This document shows, one piece after another, positions 5,613-39,953 of a stretch of 56,422 bases of DNA. The notes below the pieces were generated by a model that was not told the origin of the DNA, did not search any database, and saw only the letters and a program-made list of their open reading frames with translations. Each line of letters begins with the position of its first letter. Position 1 is the first letter of the stretch. The DNA lies in the NCBI GenBank assembly GCA_017883235.1, contig JADGNY010000028.1, positions 1 to 56,422 of the forward strand. The letters run 5' to 3'. Origin of the DNA: Thermoanaerobaculia bacterium. Its GTDB lineage: Bacteria > Acidobacteriota > Thermoanaerobaculia > Gp7-AA8. The position numbers and the translations under genes are program-made.

Positions 5613-7726
5613 CAGGAGGCACCACGGCCCGTATCGCATCAAGCATTGCATTCCTTCTGACGATCATCGCGTCCGCGGCCTTCGCGCAGATCGCCGGTGA
5701 GCGGCCGGTCTCGGCGCCGGTCTTCTACGCGCCCGTCTCTTCCTCGGGATCACCTGCAGTCGCCTCTGACGGCACTTCCTTTCTCGCCGTCTGGTGCGAT
5801 GGCCGCGATGGCGGCGATATCAACCGTACGCAGGGTGATCTATACGCGTCACGCATCGACAGCGACGGGACGATCCTCGATCCCCTCGGCATCTTCGTCG
5901 CCTCGGCGAACGGCCCGCTGGGCGTCGCCTGGAACGGCGACGCATACGTCATCATCTGGAGCACGTTCAGTCCGTACGCCGTCATGGCGGCACGCATCGC
6001 ACCGGACGGGCGGATCGTCGATCCACCCCACGTCGTCGTGCCGGGCGCTTTTCTGATCAGCGATAAACATACGATCGCGTCAAACGGAAATGTCACCGTG
6101 GTAAGTACGAACGGCGGCTACTCCGTCCTCGACAAGGATCTCCACGTCATCGACTCCGGCACGCGAAGCTCGAATTTCTCCCCTAACGGCTCCAGCGTCT
6201 ACTCCAACGGCTCCGGGGGATTCATCCTCCTCACGGGCAATGGCAGTCTGCGGCTCGATGGATCAGGCCATCCCACGGCCAACGGCCTTCAACCCAGCTC
6301 GATCGGAGGAGTGATTGCCTGCCACGGCAATGAGTGCCTCCAGGTCTTCGACATCGGAATCGGGTCCAACCTCAATGCCGCGTCGTACGATCCGACCACG
6401 GGGTCACACAGTCCGGCGGTCGGGCTCCCGATTCCGAGCGGATACAGTTACTACGACGTCGTCGCTACGGCGGATGGGTATCTCCTCTTCTCGGGCGCGG
6501 GCCTCGTGCAGCGCTTCGATGGTCAGCACAATCCGCTAGGACCACCTACTTCGCTGAGCTGGCCGGGAAGCGCAGGCGTTGCCGCCGCCTCCAACGGACA
6601 CAACACCGTAGTCCTTCGGTCGACGAATCCCGTCTCGATCGCCCTCGTGACACCTGCGTCGGCGGGAGACCTGCGCAATGTAGCCAGCAGCGGCAACGCG
6701 CAGCGCTACCCAGCCATCGCCACCGACGGATCGACCTATCTGGTGGCGTGGGAGGAGAACGACGGCATTTACGCCGGACGCCTGTCACTCGACGGGACCG
6801 CCCTCGACGGCCGAGGACGGCGGATCACCACAGCCACAGGCGCGCCGGCGGTGGCCTACGACGGTGCGTCGTATTTCGTATCCGTTGGAGACGGTTCGCA
6901 GACGACCATGGTCCGTATCGATCCGTCGAACGGCGCCACACTGGCGACACGGACGATCTGTGGTGACGCGATGCATATCGCCGGCAACGGCACGACACAC
7001 ATCGCGGTCTGGGATAACTGCGGCGGAACCGCCGCGGCATTCATCGACGCGAACGGTGCGCCCGCGTCGACCCCGGTCTCACCTCCTCCTGCCATCACCT
7101 GGAGGCCGCAAGTACATCCGGCGGTTGCGTGGAACGGAACAGAGTGGCTTATGACATGGGAAGAGGAAATCGACACCTGTGGCGGGATATCACCACCGAA
7201 CTGCCCGGCAGCGATGGTGACGATTCGCGGCGTGCGCCTCTCCGCGGCACTGACACTGATCGATACAATGCCGATCACAATCAGCGAGAGAAGTGTCCCC
7301 GGTTCGTCGCGTCTCGCCTCGGACGGTCATGACTTTCTCGCTGTTTGGTCTTCCGACTCTGTTCACGACAGACGCATTTCCGCATCCGGCGAAGTCTTCG
7401 ACGATCAGGCGCTTTTTGCCGGCACCGCGCAGGACGTCATCTGGGACGGTGTCCAATACGACCTCGCATTCACCACGTCCAAGCCGTTTTTCACGCCCTC
7501 GCCGGCCGATCTCGCGGTCGCACATCTCCGCCCGTCCGGCCAGGTGTTCGAAACGTTCCTCATCAGCGCCACCACGGACGACAAACGAAACCCAGCCCTC
7601 GTCTCACTCGGGAACGGCCGCGTCGTTGCCGCCTACACACGCCTCGGCCACGAGTCGCTGTACGGGGGCGTGCCGCGCGCCTTCGTCACCACGCCCCGCC
7701 CCGCGCGCGGGCGGGCGGCGCGATAA
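5609..7726 (+). CDS. Secreted repeat protein, paralogue of the upstream gene (705 aa)
   Basis: This is a second copy of the 3366-5612 family. It has a signal peptide (hydrophobic residues about 9-24, ending AFAQ) and the same ASDGTSFLAVWCD, ATDGSTYLVAWEE, AWNGTEWLMTWEE and ASDGHDFLAVWSS repeats. Both proteins have matching tails (GRV...YTR.G.E..YG...RAFV, then RGRA). The only plausible start is TTG at 5609, overlapping the upstream stop (TTGA). A good AGGAGG lies just inside the frame at 5613-5618 with no standard start at the right distance after it, so start use is uncertain. Translation is probably coupled to the upstream gene. Confidence 0.72.
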   Translation: MTGGTTARIASSIAFLLTIIASAAFAQIAGERPVSAPVFYAPVSSSGSPAVASDGTSFLAVWCDGRDGGDINRTQGDLYASRIDSDGTILDPLGIFVASANGPLGVAWNGDAYVIIWSTFSPYAVMAARIAPDGRIVDPPHVVVPGAFLISDKHTIASNGNVTVVSTNGGYSVLDKDLHVIDSGTRSSNFSPNGSSVYSNGSGGFILLTGNGSLRLDGSGHPTANGLQPSSIGGVIACHGNECLQVFDIGIGSNLNAASYDPTTGSHSPAVGLPIPSGYSYYDVVATADGYLLFSGAGLVQRFDGQHNPLGPPTSLSWPGSAGVAAASNGHNTVVLRSTNPVSIALVTPASAGDLRNVASSGNAQRYPAIATDGSTYLVAWEENDGIYAGRLSLDGTALDGRGRRITTATGAPAVAYDGASYFVSVGDGSQTTMVRIDPSNGATLATRTICGDAMHIAGNGTTHIAVWDNCGGTAAAFIDANGAPASTPVSPPPAITWRPQVHPAVAWNGTEWLMTWEEEIDTCGGISPPNCPAAMVTIRGVRLSAALTLIDTMPITISERSVPGSSRLASDGHDFLAVWSSDSVHDRRISASGEVFDDQALFAGTAQDVIWDGVQYDLAFTTSKPFFTPSPADLAVAHLRPSGQVFETFLISATTDDKRNPALVSLGNGRVVAAYTRLGHESLYGGVPRAFVTTPRPARGRAAR

Positions 7727-9745: not shown

Positions 9746-9754
9746 CCGGTTGGC

Positions 9755-11017
9755 TCACCGCTGCCGCACGACGACCCCGCCCTTCATCACGAACACAACC
9801 CTCTCCAACGCCTTGACATCCTTCAGCGGATCGCCGTCGATGGCGATGACGTCGGCGAGCTTCCCCGATTCGAGCACGCCGGCATCGACGCCGAGGAGTG
9901 ACGCGGCGTTCGTCGTCGCCGTCTGGAGAGCCTGCAGCGGCGTGAGGCCGGCGGTGACGAGGGCCGAAAACTCGCGGGTGGTGAACTTCGGCTCGTCGTC
10001 AAGCCCGAACGCGATCTTGACGTGATGTCTCAACGCGCGCTCGAAGGCCGGCTGTTGATAGCGGAGGATGGCCTTCCCCTTCTCAAGCATGATCGGTTCC
10101 TGGCCCGACGTCAGGCCCATCTCGACGCCGCGCTGAAATGTCTCCAGAGTCGGGACGAGCCAGGTTCCGCGCTCGGCCATCAGTTGCGCCGTTTCCTCAT
10201 CGAGCACGGTCCCGTGCTCGATCGAGTCGACGCCGGCGCGGACCGCCGCGGCGATGCCGGCCGTCCCTTCCGCGTGCGCCATGACCTTGCGGCCGGCGCG
10301 ATGCGCGACCTCGACGGCCGCCTTCATCTGCTCGTCGCTCAGCTCCTGCACGTTGTAGTTACTCAACGTATCCAACACGCCGCCGGTAGCCATCAGCTTG
10401 ATCCAGTCGACGCCGTTGCGAAGGTCGTGGCGAACGGCGACGCGTACCTCGTCCGGCGTGTCGGCGATGTTGGGAAACTTGACCATGGGGACGTCCGCCG
10501 CCAGCGGGTTGAGATCGGCGTGCCCTCCGGTGACGGAGATCGGAATCCCCGCCGCGAAGACGCGTGGTCCGGCGAACTTCCCTCGGGCAAACGCATTCCG
10601 CAGAGCGATCGTGTCGTACGCGGGATCGGTCGTGCCGGCATCGCGCACGGTGGTGAAACCGCGCTGGAGGTAGGTCTGCGCGTTCTGCAATCCGTCGAGT
10701 GTCTTCTCCGCGGAGGAGCGCCTCAGGTTGCTGGTGGCCGAAAAGTCATTCCAGTCAGCCTCGAGATGAACATGGCAATCGATGAGACCCGGCAGCACCG
10801 TGGCATCGCCAAGCTCGATGACGCGCACGCCGCCGGGCGCGCTCCTGTCGATCGAAACGATCCGGTCGCCGCGCACGACGACGTATCCCTCCGTCGCCGT
10901 CCCGCCGCGGACATCGAGCACGCGGCGCGAGTGGATGGCAACGGATGCCTGTTCTTGAGCTAAGACTCCGGCCGCGATGAGCAAGGAAATGAAGATGGCG
11001 CTGGCTATGGATCGCAT
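9755..11017 (-). CDS. Exported metal-dependent amidohydrolase
   Basis: The 420-residue protein has a signal peptide (hydrophobic residues about 5-19, cleavage near Ala20-Gln21) and the full amidohydrolase fold. Metal ligands His82 and His84 lie in LPGLIDCHVHLE; WIKLMATGGV carries the likely carboxylated lysine; HAEGTAG and SIEHG give the next two histidines; FGLDDE supplies the acidic residue usually seen as GTD. The closest pattern is the imidazolonepropionase-like/prolidase-like group of periplasmic amidohydrolases, many acting on dipeptides or cyclic amides. The substrate cannot be told. GGGAGG lies just upstream of the start. It is divergent from the 11035 gene. Confidence 0.85.
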   Translation of the reverse strand: MRSIASAIFISLLIAAGVLAQEQASVAIHSRRVLDVRGGTATEGYVVVRGDRIVSIDRSAPGGVRVIELGDATVLPGLIDCHVHLEADWNDFSATSNLRRSSAEKTLDGLQNAQTYLQRGFTTVRDAGTTDPAYDTIALRNAFARGKFAGPRVFAAGIPISVTGGHADLNPLAADVPMVKFPNIADTPDEVRVAVRHDLRNGVDWIKLMATGGVLDTLSNYNVQELSDEQMKAAVEVAHRAGRKVMAHAEGTAGIAAAVRAGVDSIEHGTVLDEETAQLMAERGTWLVPTLETFQRGVEMGLTSGQEPIMLEKGKAILRYQQPAFERALRHHVKIAFGLDDEPKFTTREFSALVTAGLTPLQALQTATTNAASLLGVDAGVLESGKLADVIAIDGDPLKDVKALERVVFVMKGGVVVRQR

Positions 11018-34288: not shown

Positions 34289-34464
34289 AGAGCGGGCGTC
34301 TCGCCTGCTCCCGACGGGCGTCTCGCCCGGCGGTGGTTTCCGTGACTACCTCACGATCTGGTAACTGCACCCTCAACCTGGCGAGTTCTCTGCACACCTG
34401 CTCATTTCACAGAAACCACCGCCGGGCGTGACGCCCGTCGGGAGCAGGCACGGATGCCCGCTCT
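34289..34464. repeat. Long imperfect palindrome, ~57-bp arms
   Basis: Arms 34289-34345 and 34407-34464 are inverted copies with a few differences, built on AGAGCGGGC, CCTGCTCCCGACGGGCGTC and CGCCCGGCGGTGGTTTC. The 61-bp centre is unrelated sequence. It lies between the antitoxin-like ORF and the TPP riboswitch. The style (GGGCGTCTCGCC blocks) is like the 7777 palindrome, although the sequences differ. It may end ccm transcription, but there is no U tract. Confidence 0.8.
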
Positions 34465-34524
34465 CCGAAAACCGTCGCGATCGTCCGCTCCAGATCCAGC
34501 AACCCACCACCCAACGTAGTACGA

Positions 34525-34622
34525 TCCCCCCATCGCCTAGGGGTGGCCGCGAAAAACGGCCTGAGATCACACCCTGGAACCTGAACCGGTTAGGACCGGC
34601 GTAGGCAAAGGCGGATGGGGCG
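34525..34622 (+). promoter_or_regulatory. TPP riboswitch (THI element)
   Basis: The conserved TPP-sensing core is clear: GGGGTGGCC near 34540, GGCCTGAGATCACACCC at about 34558-34573, GGAACCTGAACCGG at about 34576-34589, and ACCGGCGTAGGCAAAGG at about 34595-34611. P1 is formed by CCCCATCGCC (about 34527-34536) with GGCGGATGGGG (34610-34620). The 3' strand of P1 contains the GGGG that would serve as ribosome binding site for the ATG at 34627, so TPP binding should hide it and repress translation. It controls the receptor/transporter/kinase genes downstream. Confidence 0.93.
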
Positions 34623-34626
34623 ATCG

Positions 34627-36870
34627 ATGAGAGCTGTCCGTATTCTTTCCTTTCTTCTTTTTCTTCCTGTTCTTGTCTCGGCCGCGACGCTTCGCGGCGT
34701 CGTGCACGCGGTCGATGGAGCGCCGGTCAACGGTGCATTGGTCGAAGCGGCCGGGCAACGTGCGGTCACGGATACCGAGGGCCGCTTCGCCATCGACGTT
34801 CCGTCCGGCAGCTACACCGTCGTCGTGACGCGAAACGGGTTTCAGGCCGTCGCGCAACAGGCGGCGGCGGATACCGACATCGTCGTCACCTTGCGGCCGG
34901 GGCTCGCCGAGAATATCGTCGTCAGCGGGATTCGGGCCGAGGAGAAGACGCCGGTGACGAAGAGCGACGTCGATCGGTCGACGATCGAGCGCGACTACTA
35001 CGGGCAGGACATCCCGCTCCTGCTTCGCGACACACCGTCGATCGATACGTACGCCGAGGCGGGGGTGGGAGGGTCGGGATACTCGTACATCACCTTGCGG
35101 GGGATCAGCCCGACGCGGTTGAACTTCACCCTGGACGGTGTTCCGCTCGCGGACTCCGAGGACATGGGGACGTACTTCGCCGACTTCCCGGACCTTGCCC
35201 GATCGCTGCAATCGATCCAGGTGCAGCGCGGTGTCGGAACATCGACGGTCGGTTCGCCGTCGTTCGGAGGATCGATCAACCTCGAATCGATTGCGCTGTC
35301 ACCGACGGAGTCGACCAGCGCCGAAATCGGGTTCGGGTCGTTCGGCAGCAAGAACGCCACTGTCGGCTACCAGTCGGGCGCCTTGCCGGGCGGATACTCG
35401 TTCTACACGCGCCTTTCCGGCGATCAATCGAACGGATTCCGCGAATCGTCCGGCTATCGCGCGCGCAACCTCTTCGTCAGCGCCGCCAAGCAGAACGAAG
35501 ACTCGCAACTGCGCCTGACCGGCTTCACGGCCCACGAGTGGACGCAGCAGTCGTTCCTCGCCGAAGATACCGACACGCTCGCGCACGACCTGCGCGCGAA
35601 TCCGTTCGGGCCGCAGGATCGCGACAGCTTCGGCTACGACCTGGCGCAACTGCAATACCTGCGCGCGCTTTCCCCGCGGACGAACATGACCGCTTCGGTG
35701 TTCTACCAGCGCGGATACGGCTGGTATCGACTCTCCGGCGATCAGTACGGACTCGACGGACTTCTGATCGGCAGCATGGTCACGCTGAGCACGACGCACG
35801 GCCCGTGGACGGCCAACTACGGCCTGCACGTGAACGAGTTCCGGCGCGAGCACACGCTCGACGATGCCGCCGGCACGCGCCAGTACTACAACTACGGCAC
35901 GAAGGGGGAAGCGAACGCCTTCGCCAAACTGAGCTACGACGAGGCGCGCTGGCATCTCTACTCGGATCTGCAGTTGCGGACGACCAACTTTCACTACCAC
36001 GGCGACGTTGCCATCGCCCCAATCCGCTGGACGTTCTTCAATCCCAAGCTTGGCGCGCGCTACGACCTTTCGGCTGCCAGCAGCGTCTACGCCTCCGCGG
36101 GAATGTCGACGCGCGAGCCGACGCGCAACGATCTGTTTCAGGGTGAAGACAATGCCACCTTCGCGCACGACCTGCACTCCGTTCACCCCGAGCGGCTCGT
36201 CGATCTCGAAGCCGGCTGGAACGCGCGCGGACGCACGGCGACATTCGGCGCGAACGTCTACGCGATGAACTTCCACAACGAGATCGCCTCCACCGGCGAG
36301 CTCTCTCCGATCGGGCTGCTGCTGCGCCGGAACGTCGACCGCAGCTACCGCCGCGGGCTCGAGCTGGAGTACACGTGGCAGGCGATACCACGGCTGAAAC
36401 TGCGCGGCAACGCCACTCTGAGCCGCAACCGCATCCATACCTGGACGCAGTTCTACGACGTCTACGATGCCGCCGGGAACATCGTCGGCAGCCAGCCGAT
36501 CACGTTTCACGACGTGAATCCCATCCTCACTCCGTCGATGATCGTGAATCAGTCCATCGAGTACGCAACATCGTCCTCGATGACATTCGGCCTGACGGGC
36601 CGGCACGTGGGACGCTCGTATCTCGACAACACGAACAACGGCGCGTTCATCGCACCGGCGTTTACGACCCTCGAAGCGAATGCCGCCATCGCTGTTTCAC
36701 ACGGCGTCCGTTTTCGCGTGCAGGTCAACAACCTCACGAACAACAAGCGCATCTTCCCGAGCGGCTACAGCTATCTCTTTCTCACGCCGGCCAGGACCAT
36801 CGATGGGATCTCGTACTACTACCCGCAGGCCACGCGAAATGCTGCGATCATGATCAACTTCAAACGGTGA
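34627..36870 (+). CDS. TonB-dependent receptor, probable thiamine uptake (747 aa)
   Basis: The ATG at 34627 follows GGGG of the riboswitch P1 strand at good spacing; an in-frame ATG at 34615 lies inside the P1 stem. The order is signal peptide (residues 1-19), a carboxypeptidase-regulatory-like beta domain (about 20-95: LRGVVHAVDGAPVNGALVEA), plug domain (PLLLRDTPSIDTY, YITLRGISPTRLNFTLDGVPL, VQRGVGTSTVGSPSFGGSINL) and a 22-strand-type barrel to AAIMINFKR. These outer-membrane proteins import scarce ligands with TonB energy. The TPP riboswitch and the PnuC-type gene point to thiamine or a derivative. Confidence 0.9.
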   Translation: MRAVRILSFLLFLPVLVSAATLRGVVHAVDGAPVNGALVEAAGQRAVTDTEGRFAIDVPSGSYTVVVTRNGFQAVAQQAAADTDIVVTLRPGLAENIVVSGIRAEEKTPVTKSDVDRSTIERDYYGQDIPLLLRDTPSIDTYAEAGVGGSGYSYITLRGISPTRLNFTLDGVPLADSEDMGTYFADFPDLARSLQSIQVQRGVGTSTVGSPSFGGSINLESIALSPTESTSAEIGFGSFGSKNATVGYQSGALPGGYSFYTRLSGDQSNGFRESSGYRARNLFVSAAKQNEDSQLRLTGFTAHEWTQQSFLAEDTDTLAHDLRANPFGPQDRDSFGYDLAQLQYLRALSPRTNMTASVFYQRGYGWYRLSGDQYGLDGLLIGSMVTLSTTHGPWTANYGLHVNEFRREHTLDDAAGTRQYYNYGTKGEANAFAKLSYDEARWHLYSDLQLRTTNFHYHGDVAIAPIRWTFFNPKLGARYDLSAASSVYASAGMSTREPTRNDLFQGEDNATFAHDLHSVHPERLVDLEAGWNARGRTATFGANVYAMNFHNEIASTGELSPIGLLLRRNVDRSYRRGLELEYTWQAIPRLKLRGNATLSRNRIHTWTQFYDVYDAAGNIVGSQPITFHDVNPILTPSMIVNQSIEYATSSSMTFGLTGRHVGRSYLDNTNNGAFIAPAFTTLEANAAIAVSHGVRFRVQVNNLTNNKRIFPSGYSYLFLTPARTIDGISYYYPQATRNAAIMINFKR

Positions 36871-37442
36871 CGATACCAACCCCACTCGAAATCGCCGCGG
36901 CTCTCTTCATCCTCGTCAACGTCTGGCTGGCGACGAAGGAGAACATCTGGACGTGGCCGACCGGCATCGTCGGTGTGGTGCTTTACGCCGTCGTCAACTA
37001 CAAAGCGGGGCTGTACGCCAATGCCGGTCTTCAGGTCGTCTACTTCGTTCTCTCGATCATGGGATGGTACGAGTGGCTGCACGGGGGCGTGAACAAGACC
37101 GAGTTGCACGTACGTCGCACGACTCCACATCAGTGGCTCGGCTGCTCTATCGCATCAATCGTGCTGTGGGTAGCGTTGCTGGCGCTCCTTCGCTGGACGC
37201 ACAACGCCCAGCAGCCCATTCTCGATGCCGGCACCACGGCGCTCAGCCTTGTCGGGCAGTGGATGATGAACGAGAAGCTGATCGAGAACTGGTGGTTCTG
37301 GCTCGTCGTCGACATCGCCTACGTCCCGATCTATCTCAAATCGGGCAACTGGCTGACGGCGGTTCTCTACGCGGCCTTCTGCGCCCTCTGCATCAAAGGT
37401 CTCATCGAATGGAAGCGATCGATGCAACTCACGTCTGCTTGA
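36867..37442 (+). CDS. pnuT: PnuC-family inner-membrane transporter, probable PnuT (191 aa)
   Basis: The start is GTG at 36867 overlapping the receptor stop (GTGA). PnuC-family features are visible: NVWLATKENIWTWPTGIVGVVLYAV near residue 16, the YEWLHGG region near 70, and the TM-rich NWWFWLVVDIAYVPIYLK and NWLTAVLYAAFCALCIKGLIEW at the C-terminus (WxxW-type substrate pocket). PnuC carries nicotinamide riboside and PnuT carries thiamine by facilitated diffusion, with trapping by phosphorylation. The TPP riboswitch at the head of the operon makes thiamine the likely substrate. The next gene would provide the trapping kinase. Confidence 0.85.
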   Translation: MTIPTPLEIAAALFILVNVWLATKENIWTWPTGIVGVVLYAVVNYKAGLYANAGLQVVYFVLSIMGWYEWLHGGVNKTELHVRRTTPHQWLGCSIASIVLWVALLALLRWTHNAQQPILDAGTTALSLVGQWMMNEKLIENWWFWLVVDIAYVPIYLKSGNWLTAVLYAAFCALCIKGLIEWKRSMQLTSA

Positions 37443-37954
37443 TCGGTCCGGAGTGCACCGGCAAGACCACGCTGGCCGAACGGCTCGCCGACCACTTCGG
37501 CGTCGCGTGGGTCGCGGAGTTCGCGCGCGAGTACGCGCTGCGTGTTGGCCGCTTGTTGACGGTCGATGACGTCGAACCGATCGCCCGCGGACAGATGGCC
37601 CTCGAGGATGCCGCGCCACAACCGACAACCCCTTCTCTAACCATCCTCGACACAGACCTCACCAGCACCGTCGTCTACGCCACGCATTACTACGGCACCT
37701 GTCCGGAATGGATCGAAACCGCGGCCAGAGCGCGCAAGGCCGATCTCTATCTCCTGACCGATGTCGACGTGCCATGGACGATTGACGACGTCCGCGACTC
37801 CGCGGCTCCGCGCGAGACCCTGCACCGCGTGTTTGCCACGACGCTGGCAACCTACGGCGCAGACTTCGTCGCCATCCGCGGTGATCGGGAAACGCGATTC
37901 GCCGCGGCCCTTGCGGCGATCGCCGCCCGATTCCACGTTCAACGGGGCTATTGA
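37409..37954 (+). CDS. NadR-like P-loop kinase, candidate thiamine kinase (181 aa)
   Basis: The ATG at 37409 lies inside the end of pnuT (34-base overlap). Residues 13-20 (GPECTGKT) form a Walker A loop with the GPESTGKT-like form seen in NadR ribosylnicotinamide kinase domains. EFAREYALRVGR near 43 and LTILDTDLTSTVVYATHYYG near 75 match the NadR kinase pattern; LYLLTDVDVPW near 110 and a DVRDS lid region follow. There is no nucleotidyltransferase or HTH domain of full NadR. Position after a TPP-riboswitch-controlled thiamine-type transporter suggests thiamine, not nicotinamide riboside, as substrate. This is inference from context. Confidence 0.78.
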   Translation: MEAIDATHVCLIGPECTGKTTLAERLADHFGVAWVAEFAREYALRVGRLLTVDDVEPIARGQMALEDAAPQPTTPSLTILDTDLTSTVVYATHYYGTCPEWIETAARARKADLYLLTDVDVPWTIDDVRDSAAPRETLHRVFATTLATYGADFVAIRGDRETRFAAALAAIAARFHVQRGY

Positions 37955-37990: not shown

Positions 37991-38210
37991 TCCTGATTCC
38001 GGACAAAAGATCAGGATTTCGGATAAAAGATCAGGATTCCGTACGAAAATTCAAGATTCCGTACGAAAGATCACGATTTCGGATGAAAGATCAGGATTCC
38101 GTACGAAAGATCACGATTCCGGACAAAAGATCACGATTCCGGACAAAAGATCACGATTCCGGACAAAAGATCAGGATTCCACGTTTGAGGTCGCGGATTC
38201 GGATCGGATG
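37991..38210. repeat. Tandem array of 20-bp repeats (about ten copies)
   Basis: Units of exactly 20 bp recur at 37991, 38011, 38031, 38051, 38071, 38091, 38111, 38131, 38151 and 38171, with a decayed unit near 38191. The consensus is TCA[C/G]GATTCCGGACAAAAGA, and variants have GTACGA or GGATGA in place of GGACAA. The array starts 36 bp after the kinase stop. An ATG at 37954 overlaps that stop (TGATG), and its frame stays open through all units to 38220, giving a basic 88-residue peptide. The period is not a multiple of three, so each unit is read in a different frame in turn. Coding is possible but unsupported. Confidence 0.88.
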
Positions 38211-38541: not shown

Positions 38542-39501
38542 TCAGGCTCGCAACACTGCCAGTGACCCGTCGAGCCAGGCCAGCAAGATCTTGTTCTTTC
38601 CGAACTCACGGTCGCATCGTTTGATGAGATTCGAAATGTGGCCTTCGCTTCGAAGCCGGAGGGACGCTGCGATCGAACGGAGTGTGATCAAACCCTCATG
38701 CCATCCGAGCCATGCGGTCAGGCGGCGCAGGATCCCGCCGCGCGTCGCTCGGATCGAGTCTGCGGTTTCTCCCGCGGCTTTCGCGACGGCGTCGAGGATC
38801 GTATGCATCTTCGGCCGTCCCACCGCCCGCTGCGCCCGGGGATGATCCGTCGAACGCGGCGTCGATTCGACGAGCTTCCGTGCCGCCTTGATCCATTCCT
38901 CGGTTCCGAGATAGAGCTGATTCTCCAGCTTGTCCCACAGCCGATCCTCACAGCCGATTTTCGCCAGAACGAACTCTCGATACGCTGCCTGCGCCGGCTG
39001 CTTTTCACCACCGAACAGAGGACGGACCGAATCGAGGTCGAGCCACTCAGGCGCGCTCTCCAGTCCAGCCGTCGCGCGGTAACTCGACCACCGGTAATCC
39101 TCGGGCCTCTCGACCATCTTCGCGCGGACCGGGTTGAGAACGACGTATCGCAGAACCTCGGCGAAGTACGCCTCGCGATCGATGAGGAAGGCTTTGAATC
39201 GCCCCTCAAACAGATGGCCGCGTCGTTTGTGGACCCGGTTGAACCAGCCGGCATAGACGCTGTTGAGCCAGTGCATCCCGCGAGAGAGATTCGGCTTGTG
39301 CGTCTGAACGACGAGATGGTAATGATTCGTCATGAGGACCCAGGCGGTGACGGACCATCCAAATCGCCGCGCAGCAGCGCCGAGGAAGGTGAGGAAGGCC
39401 TTGCGATCCCGATCGGAGCGGAAGATGTTCCTTCGCTCGTTGCCGCGCGATGTCAGGTGGTAGAGAGCGTCTTCGAATTCGATTCGTAACGGTCGTGCCA
39501 T
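38542..39501 (-). CDS. REP-associated tyrosine transposase, RAYT (319 aa)
   Basis: This is a Y1-type HUH single-strand DNA transposase. MARPLRIEFEDALYHLTSRGNERRNIF is the usual start of the family. The metal-binding HxH is His60-Tyr61-His62 in LMTNHYHLVV, and the catalytic tyrosine is Tyr119 in LRYVVLNPVRA. The C-terminal part (about 200-319) includes a helical region with GHISNLIKRCDREFG, resembling a DnaA-like DNA-binding helix set. RAYTs act on REP palindromes. REP-like repeats lie on both sides in opposite orientations, and related motifs are found in cheR. A longer frame upstream of 39501 is not used. Confidence 0.85.
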   Translation of the reverse strand: MARPLRIEFEDALYHLTSRGNERRNIFRSDRDRKAFLTFLGAAARRFGWSVTAWVLMTNHYHLVVQTHKPNLSRGMHWLNSVYAGWFNRVHKRRGHLFEGRFKAFLIDREAYFAEVLRYVVLNPVRAKMVERPEDYRWSSYRATAGLESAPEWLDLDSVRPLFGGEKQPAQAAYREFVLAKIGCEDRLWDKLENQLYLGTEEWIKAARKLVESTPRSTDHPRAQRAVGRPKMHTILDAVAKAAGETADSIRATRGGILRRLTAWLGWHEGLITLRSIAASLRLRSEGHISNLIKRCDREFGKNKILLAWLDGSLAVLRA

Positions 39502-39632
39502 AACGCAACCGAGGATCCCTCGGGTTACAGCAATCGCCGAGGAATCCGCAACGAGTAGAGAAAAACGGCTGGAAAACTCCTCGGAATGGAAAATCGCTCT
39601 ACCGGGTGTAGAACGTCTTCCCACAAACAACG

Positions 39633-39740
39633 AGAATCGAAGGCCTGTCGCGTGGGGGTGGAGCGGCGCCGCCCCAGTTGAAAATCGAAGGCCTGGCACC
39701 TCGGAGGTCCAAAATCGAAGGCTTGGCACCTCGGAGGTCC
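39633..39740. repeat. REP-like repeats right of the RAYT gene
   Basis: Two direct 30-bp copies lie at 39681-39710 and 39711-39740, each AAAATCGAAGGC[C/T]TGG followed by CACCTCGGAGGTCC. A shorter copy (GAATCGAAGGCCTG) begins at about 39634. They are the inverse complement of the repeats at 38238-38292, so the transposase gene is bracketed by inverted REP-like clusters. CCTCGGAGG within each unit is itself a small palindrome. Confidence 0.78.
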
Positions 39741-39770
39741 GGAGCTCCAGGCTGAACCCTTGTCCTACGA

Positions 39771-39953
39771 TCAAAGCTGATTCGCGACCCACAGCAATGC
39801 CATGCCAGCAAAAAGAAAGCTGGTTCCGATCAGCCACAGACGCCGCTCGGAGGCTGTATCCCCGTAAGCTAACGTGAAGCCGGATTGAGATGATCTTGGA
39901 AACCGGCTCGCAATAGGCGGATGCTGGACTCGATCAGAATTCGCCGATCCCAA
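39771..39953 (-). CDS. Possible small membrane protein after cheB (60 aa)
   Basis: A TTG at 39953 is preceded by GGGGAGG (inside the last cheB codons) at good spacing, three bases after the cheB stop. The frame codes for a 60-residue protein with one C-terminal membrane helix (LWLIGTSFLFAGMALLWVA). No family was recognised. The nearby REP-like repeats and the lack of a known product keep confidence low. Confidence 0.3.
   Translation of the reverse strand: MGSANSDRVQHPPIASRFPRSSQSGFTLAYGDTASERRLWLIGTSFLFAGMALLWVANQL

Follow-up and report, generated by a model that had tools for sequence, protein, structure and literature searches.

A TPP riboswitch-controlled operon predicted to salvage thiamine with a NadR-type kinase in Acidobacteriota

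A TPP riboswitch was found ahead of three overlapping genes, coding for a TonB-dependent receptor, a PnuC-family facilitator and a small NadR-type kinase, in a Thermoanaerobaculia bacterium. The operon very probably serves thiamine salvage in this acidobacterium, which appears to be a thiamine auxotroph, and with the same high confidence thiamine is predicted to be the physiological substrate of the kinase. From genomic context and comparison we infer thiamine also as the substrate of the receptor and the transporter, and likewise the direction and mode of riboswitch control. If this reading is true, soil bacteria unable to make vitamin B1 have recruited a small kinase of NAD metabolism to trap it. 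The following features were identified in the window, that is, the whole stretch of 56,422 nucleotides analysed:

34522..34626, forward strand: aptamer with extended P1 helix, from RNA folding (-50.3 kcal/mol, z -2.85) and sequence
34529..34625, forward strand: TPP riboswitch aptamer (RF00059; cmscan 56.6 bits, gathering score 54.3)
34627..36870, forward strand: TonB-dependent receptor with a carboxypeptidase-regulatory-like N domain (PF13620, PF07715, PF00593)
36867..37442, forward strand: PnuC-family inner-membrane facilitator (PF04973, 181 bits, E 2.2e-53; TIGR01528, 90 bits, cut-off 42.5)
37409..37954, forward strand: 181-aa single-domain NadR-type P-loop kinase (PF13521, 119.5 bits), overlapping pnuC by 34 nt

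The preliminary description of this DNA had placed a TPP riboswitch before three overlapping genes, and both elements were confirmed. The RF00059 covariance search, proposed as a check on 34525-34622, gave a match at 34529-34625 with a score above gathering by a small margin (56.6 vs 54.3 bits) and an E-value of 1.7e-8 at window scale or 5e-10 at genome scale; domains were matched in the receptor, PnuC and kinase alike. The GTG start of pnuC overlaps the stop of the receptor gene. A whole-genome search with RF00059 detected this TPP riboswitch and no other in the host. Homologous leaders at the same position in related genomes scored 55.6-72.6 bits or were caught by a model made from them. By RNA folding, the P1 helix was found to reach upstream to about 34522, with pairing of 34522-34526 to 34622-34626 and of 34528-34534 to 34614-34620. 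The SD-like sequence GGGGCGATC at 34617-34625 is located within the 3' arm of P1, immediately 5' of the ATG at 34627. This arrangement suggests that P1 stabilised by TPP would hide the ribosome site, leading to translational control by direct masking. As 34615 sits within the P1 helix, the ATG at 34627 is a more likely start of the receptor gene than 34615. At many other loci (L066-L145) the receptor start is located 35-90 nt 3' of the aptamer, and the spacer carries an ACTCC(T)GG-like stretch that resembles an anti-SD sequence; the mode of control at these loci may differ from the direct masking proposed for the host operon.

The surroundings of the operon include repeated sequences. The interval from the upstream genes to the riboswitch contains a near-perfect 43-nt inverted repeat (34303-34345 and 34407-34449; 95%, 61-nt spacer), perhaps a REP-like element. 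Immediately 3' of the kinase gene, at 37995-38180, a 20-bp unit (GATTCCGGACAAAAGATCAC) is repeated in tandem about nine times, and further downstream an open reading frame on the reverse strand (38542-39837) reads, by eye, like a REP-associated tyrosine transposase (MARPLRIEFEDALYHLTSRGNERRNIF).

Annotation by homology was expected to direct both transporter and kinase to nicotinamide riboside, and this was indeed the case: the transporter scored 90 bits against the TIGR01528 cut-off of 42.5, and the kinase matched the ribosylnicotinamide-kinase half of TIGR01526. These matches speak for a rival reading, a nicotinamide-riboside salvage pair, in which PnuC and a ribosylnicotinamide kinase making NMN stand behind a TPP riboswitch by chance. 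The transporter resembles the PnuC structure 4qtn, and its conserved residues agree with the same view, as no conserved column in the alignment splits NadR-linked from riboswitch-linked PnuC and the residues are alike in both sets. The specificity of the transporter is thus read from genomic context, by which we consider it a putative PnuT for thiamine, and the receptor a putative outer-membrane thiamine receptor of OMthi/OMR1 type. For facilitators of the PnuC/PnuT family, the substrate is trapped through phosphorylation.

The kinase had been described as a stand-alone enzyme of NadR type, neither a thiamine pyrophosphokinase (TPK) nor ThiK, and profile searches agree with this assignment. 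The NadR model TIGR01526 was matched only in its kinase half (positions 164-322; 88.7 bits vs a cut-off of 341), and the NMN adenylyltransferase (NMNAT) domain is absent by this profile coverage. No match of the host kinase to the ThiK model TIGR02721 was obtained at E 0.001. The AlphaFold2 model (pLDDT 92.7) is closest among solved folds to NadR kinase domains (Z 19.9-21.9, the best being 8x7f at 21.9), as would be expected also for a nicotinamide-riboside kinase, followed by thymidylate kinases (Z about 17) and deoxycytidine kinase (Z about 16). Comparison of the substrate pocket with NadR, as proposed in the preliminary description, identified the P-loop, E37, R40, D81, T87, R129 and R135 as common to the kinase clade and NadR, and S86, Y90, L84, H93, P99 and W101 as the aligned positions that separate them. 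The separating positions are mostly located on, or adjacent to, the helix that follows the D81-T-D83 motif, and from the fold these residues would line the substrate pocket. S86 was present in all 58 riboswitch-linked kinases and in none of 11 NMNAT-fused or four solved NadRs.

The thiamine pathway of the host, whose genome is rated 100% complete, was then compared with these features. ThiL is present (240 bits; G000:C6, away from the operon). Genome searches detected neither ThiC nor ThiE, TIGR01378 for TPK gave no match in the genome, and the best match to TIGR02721 for ThiK was a fragment scoring 20 bits (cut-off 299); this cut-off was reached in none of 29 genomes. With ThiL retained and ThiC, ThiE, TPK and ThiK all missing, thiamine monophosphate must come from phosphorylation of imported thiamine. 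TPP riboswitches of other bacteria are known to govern salvage of thiamine precursors as well, and a kinase for HMP or hydroxyethylthiazole would fit such control. The enzyme that joins these two precursors, ThiE, is missing in the host and in 16 of the 20 kinase genomes in a sample of 297 Acidobacteriota genomes, so salvage of HMP or thiazole could not supply ThiL, and this candidate substrate was rejected as extremely unlikely. Direct synthesis of TPP by a TPK-like pyrophosphokinase was likewise rejected, as hardly credible: the kinase does stand in for TPK in auxotrophs, but ThiL is kept in 46 of 50 kinase-bearing genomes and the fold is that of a P-loop kinase for gamma-phosphoryl transfer.

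Other kinase-bearing genomes showed the same pattern. TPK was found in none of the 50 kinase-bearing genomes, and ThiC was absent in 26 of 32, a few genomes being counted under two handles; gene absences here rest partly on draft genomes. Both ThiC and ThiE are missing in 37 of the 297 Acidobacteriota genomes. Among these 37, 16 (seven families) carry the S86/Y90 kinase, 15 (six other families) carry TPK, none carries both and six carry neither, a pattern covering 13 families without family overlap. Only four of the 237 genomes with ThiC and ThiE carry the kinase. Fisher tests, in which relatedness was ignored, gave p 4e-13 for kinase against ThiC/ThiE loss and 6e-6 for the exclusion between kinase and TPK. 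That the kinase follows thiamine auxotrophy and excludes TPK argues against the nicotinamide-riboside pair. Six auxotroph-looking genomes (G017, G043, G092, G109, G230 and G232) lack both TPK and the kinase clade; one of them, G230, has a distant single-domain kinase beside PnuC (L051, DTDPLQTAVY), perhaps one more variant.

A search for NadR-like kinases next to PnuC and downstream of RF00059 matches, as had been suggested, recovered the arrangement repeatedly. By plain protein search, the kinase family was detected in 32 of the 297 Acidobacteriota genomes. When wide flanks were examined, 12 of 33 loci besides the host were found to have a TPP riboswitch, always ahead of receptor, PnuC and kinase, several contigs being too short to tell; flanks of 1.5 kb gave no Rfam riboswitch match, because the riboswitch is located upstream of the 2.2-kb receptor gene. 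The remaining loci were mainly two-domain NadRs adjoining PnuC, with neither receptor nor riboswitch. When 84,980 genomes were scanned with the alignment of the kinases, by a pattern that contains the S86/Y90 signature, 80 loci were obtained, mostly from Acidobacteriota and Gemmatimonadota. PnuC adjoins the kinase in all 80, the NMNAT domain is missing in 79, and a local TPP riboswitch is present in 46. For PnuC-kinase pairs lacking a local riboswitch, the TPP riboswitch was located in 20 genomes, and in 18 it stands directly ahead of a receptor gene from the same family. Retention of the riboswitch over many genomes, even on an unlinked receptor, and lack of the adenylyltransferase domain at nearly every locus both speak against chance association with nicotinamide-riboside salvage, as does genome G054, in which a two-domain NadR (L059) exists separately from the riboswitch-linked kinase (L034). 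We thus judge a nicotinamide-riboside pair to be very improbable. In G054, a c-di-AMP riboswitch (RF00379, 75.5 bits) was also detected near the two-domain NadR gene (L059, 1756-2913).

These observations altogether support the earlier proposal that the riboswitch marks the transporter as PnuT and the kinase as a thiamine kinase: operon and clade are conserved in two phyla, ThiC and ThiE are lost with ThiL kept, TPK and ThiK are absent, and the kinase and TPK are mutually exclusive among auxotrophs.

For the origin of the kinase, the set of 33 loci was used, this being the only set unbiased for the S86/Y90 signature. The 20 S86/Y90 kinases of this set form a single clade (support 95/95), nested among two-domain NadRs and separate from nearly all NMNAT-fused ones. 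A riboswitch was present for 12 of 19 S86/Y90 kinases and none of 14 others (p 1.6e-4), and an NMNAT domain in one of 19 vs 11 of 14 (p 2e-5). The nested position is also compatible with a recent NadR offshoot of relaxed specificity, a bifunctional or promiscuous kinase for both thiamine and nicotinamide riboside. L046/L127, one member of the clade, points the same way, as it combines the thiamine-type signature with an NMNAT domain in which the GKFxPPHxGH and SGTxIR motifs look intact, so that signature and substrate may not correspond one to one. The near fixation of S86, Y90, L84, H93, P99 and W101 suggests instead selection for a distinct pocket, and we regard such dual specificity as unlikely. 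The genome of L046/L127 has ThiC and ThiE. At L127, the fused gene (5798-6772, forward strand) is convergent to a riboswitch-controlled receptor-PnuC pair (PnuC at 6799-7362 and TPP riboswitch at 9749-9842, both on the reverse strand). The NMNAT domain kept by L127 would also suit a nicotinamide-riboside kinase; the fusion is possibly an evolutionary intermediate, or possibly an indication that kinases with this signature can still accept nicotinamide riboside.

On the preferred reading of thiamine salvage, a low level of TPP would open the riboswitch and free the ribosome site of the receptor gene. Thiamine would be carried over the outer membrane by the TonB receptor and equilibrated across the inner membrane by the PnuC-family facilitator. 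Phosphorylation to thiamine monophosphate by the NadR-type kinase would then trap it, and ThiL, whose gene lies elsewhere in the genome, would convert the monophosphate to TPP. The kinase probably arose from the ribosylnicotinamide-kinase domain of NadR by loss of the adenylyltransferase domain and change of substrate, and it would occupy the place of TPK or ThiK. NadR-derived thiamine kinases then probably represent a third, non-homologous enzyme family catalysing the initial step in the salvage of thiamine, replacing TPK and ThiK in auxotrophic Acidobacteriota and Gemmatimonadota through NMNAT loss and pocket change, with L127 as an extant NMNAT-fused intermediate. If true, this closes a gap in the salvage of vitamin B1 in two phyla of soil bacteria, corrects a family-wide misannotation as nicotinamide-riboside transporter and kinase, and allows auxotrophy predictions to score these genomes as thiamine users. 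The clade would also show cleanly how a small kinase can change its substrate, and it would offer residues that are candidates for determining specificity.

The OMthi-PnuT-tnr3 operon is already known, as is PnuT as a thiamine transporter encoded beside TPP riboswitches (PMC5613172; PMC7749635). The preliminary description had pointed to such receptor/PnuT pairs under riboswitch control in Bacteroidetes. The thiamine enzymes of auxotrophs have been listed as ThiL/ThiN and ThiK (PMC6593275). In the open literature, we found no NadR-type thiamine kinase displacing TPK or ThiK; an earlier prediction in subscription papers, RegPrecise or SEED is possible. For an established step of thiamine salvage, the kinase would represent a new and non-orthologous solution. 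As in the OMthi-PnuT-tnr3 operon (PMC5613172), the TPP riboswitch of the host is followed by a TonB receptor, a PnuC-family facilitator predicted to carry thiamine and an enzyme predicted to phosphorylate it. The enzyme in Bacteroidetes is Tnr3 ("thiamine pyrophosphorylase", PMC5613172), whereas the host has a NadR-type kinase and would need ThiL for the second step. With the RNK domain of NadR (8x7f, 6gyf, 1lw7), the host kinase has in common the fold (Z 20-22), the P-loop, E37, R40, D81, T87, R129 and the PnuC neighbour; it differs in lacking the NMNAT and HTH domains, in S86/Y90/H93/P99/W101, in the TPP riboswitch and in tracking thiamine auxotrophy. ThiK (YcfN) catalyses the step predicted for the host kinase, from thiamine to thiamine monophosphate upstream of ThiL, but belongs to another family, the host enzyme being an AAA_28/NadR P-loop kinase. 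TPK/ThiN, of a fold unrelated to that of the NadR-type kinase and never found together with it in the 297-genome sample, shares with the host kinase its physiological place in thiamine auxotrophs.
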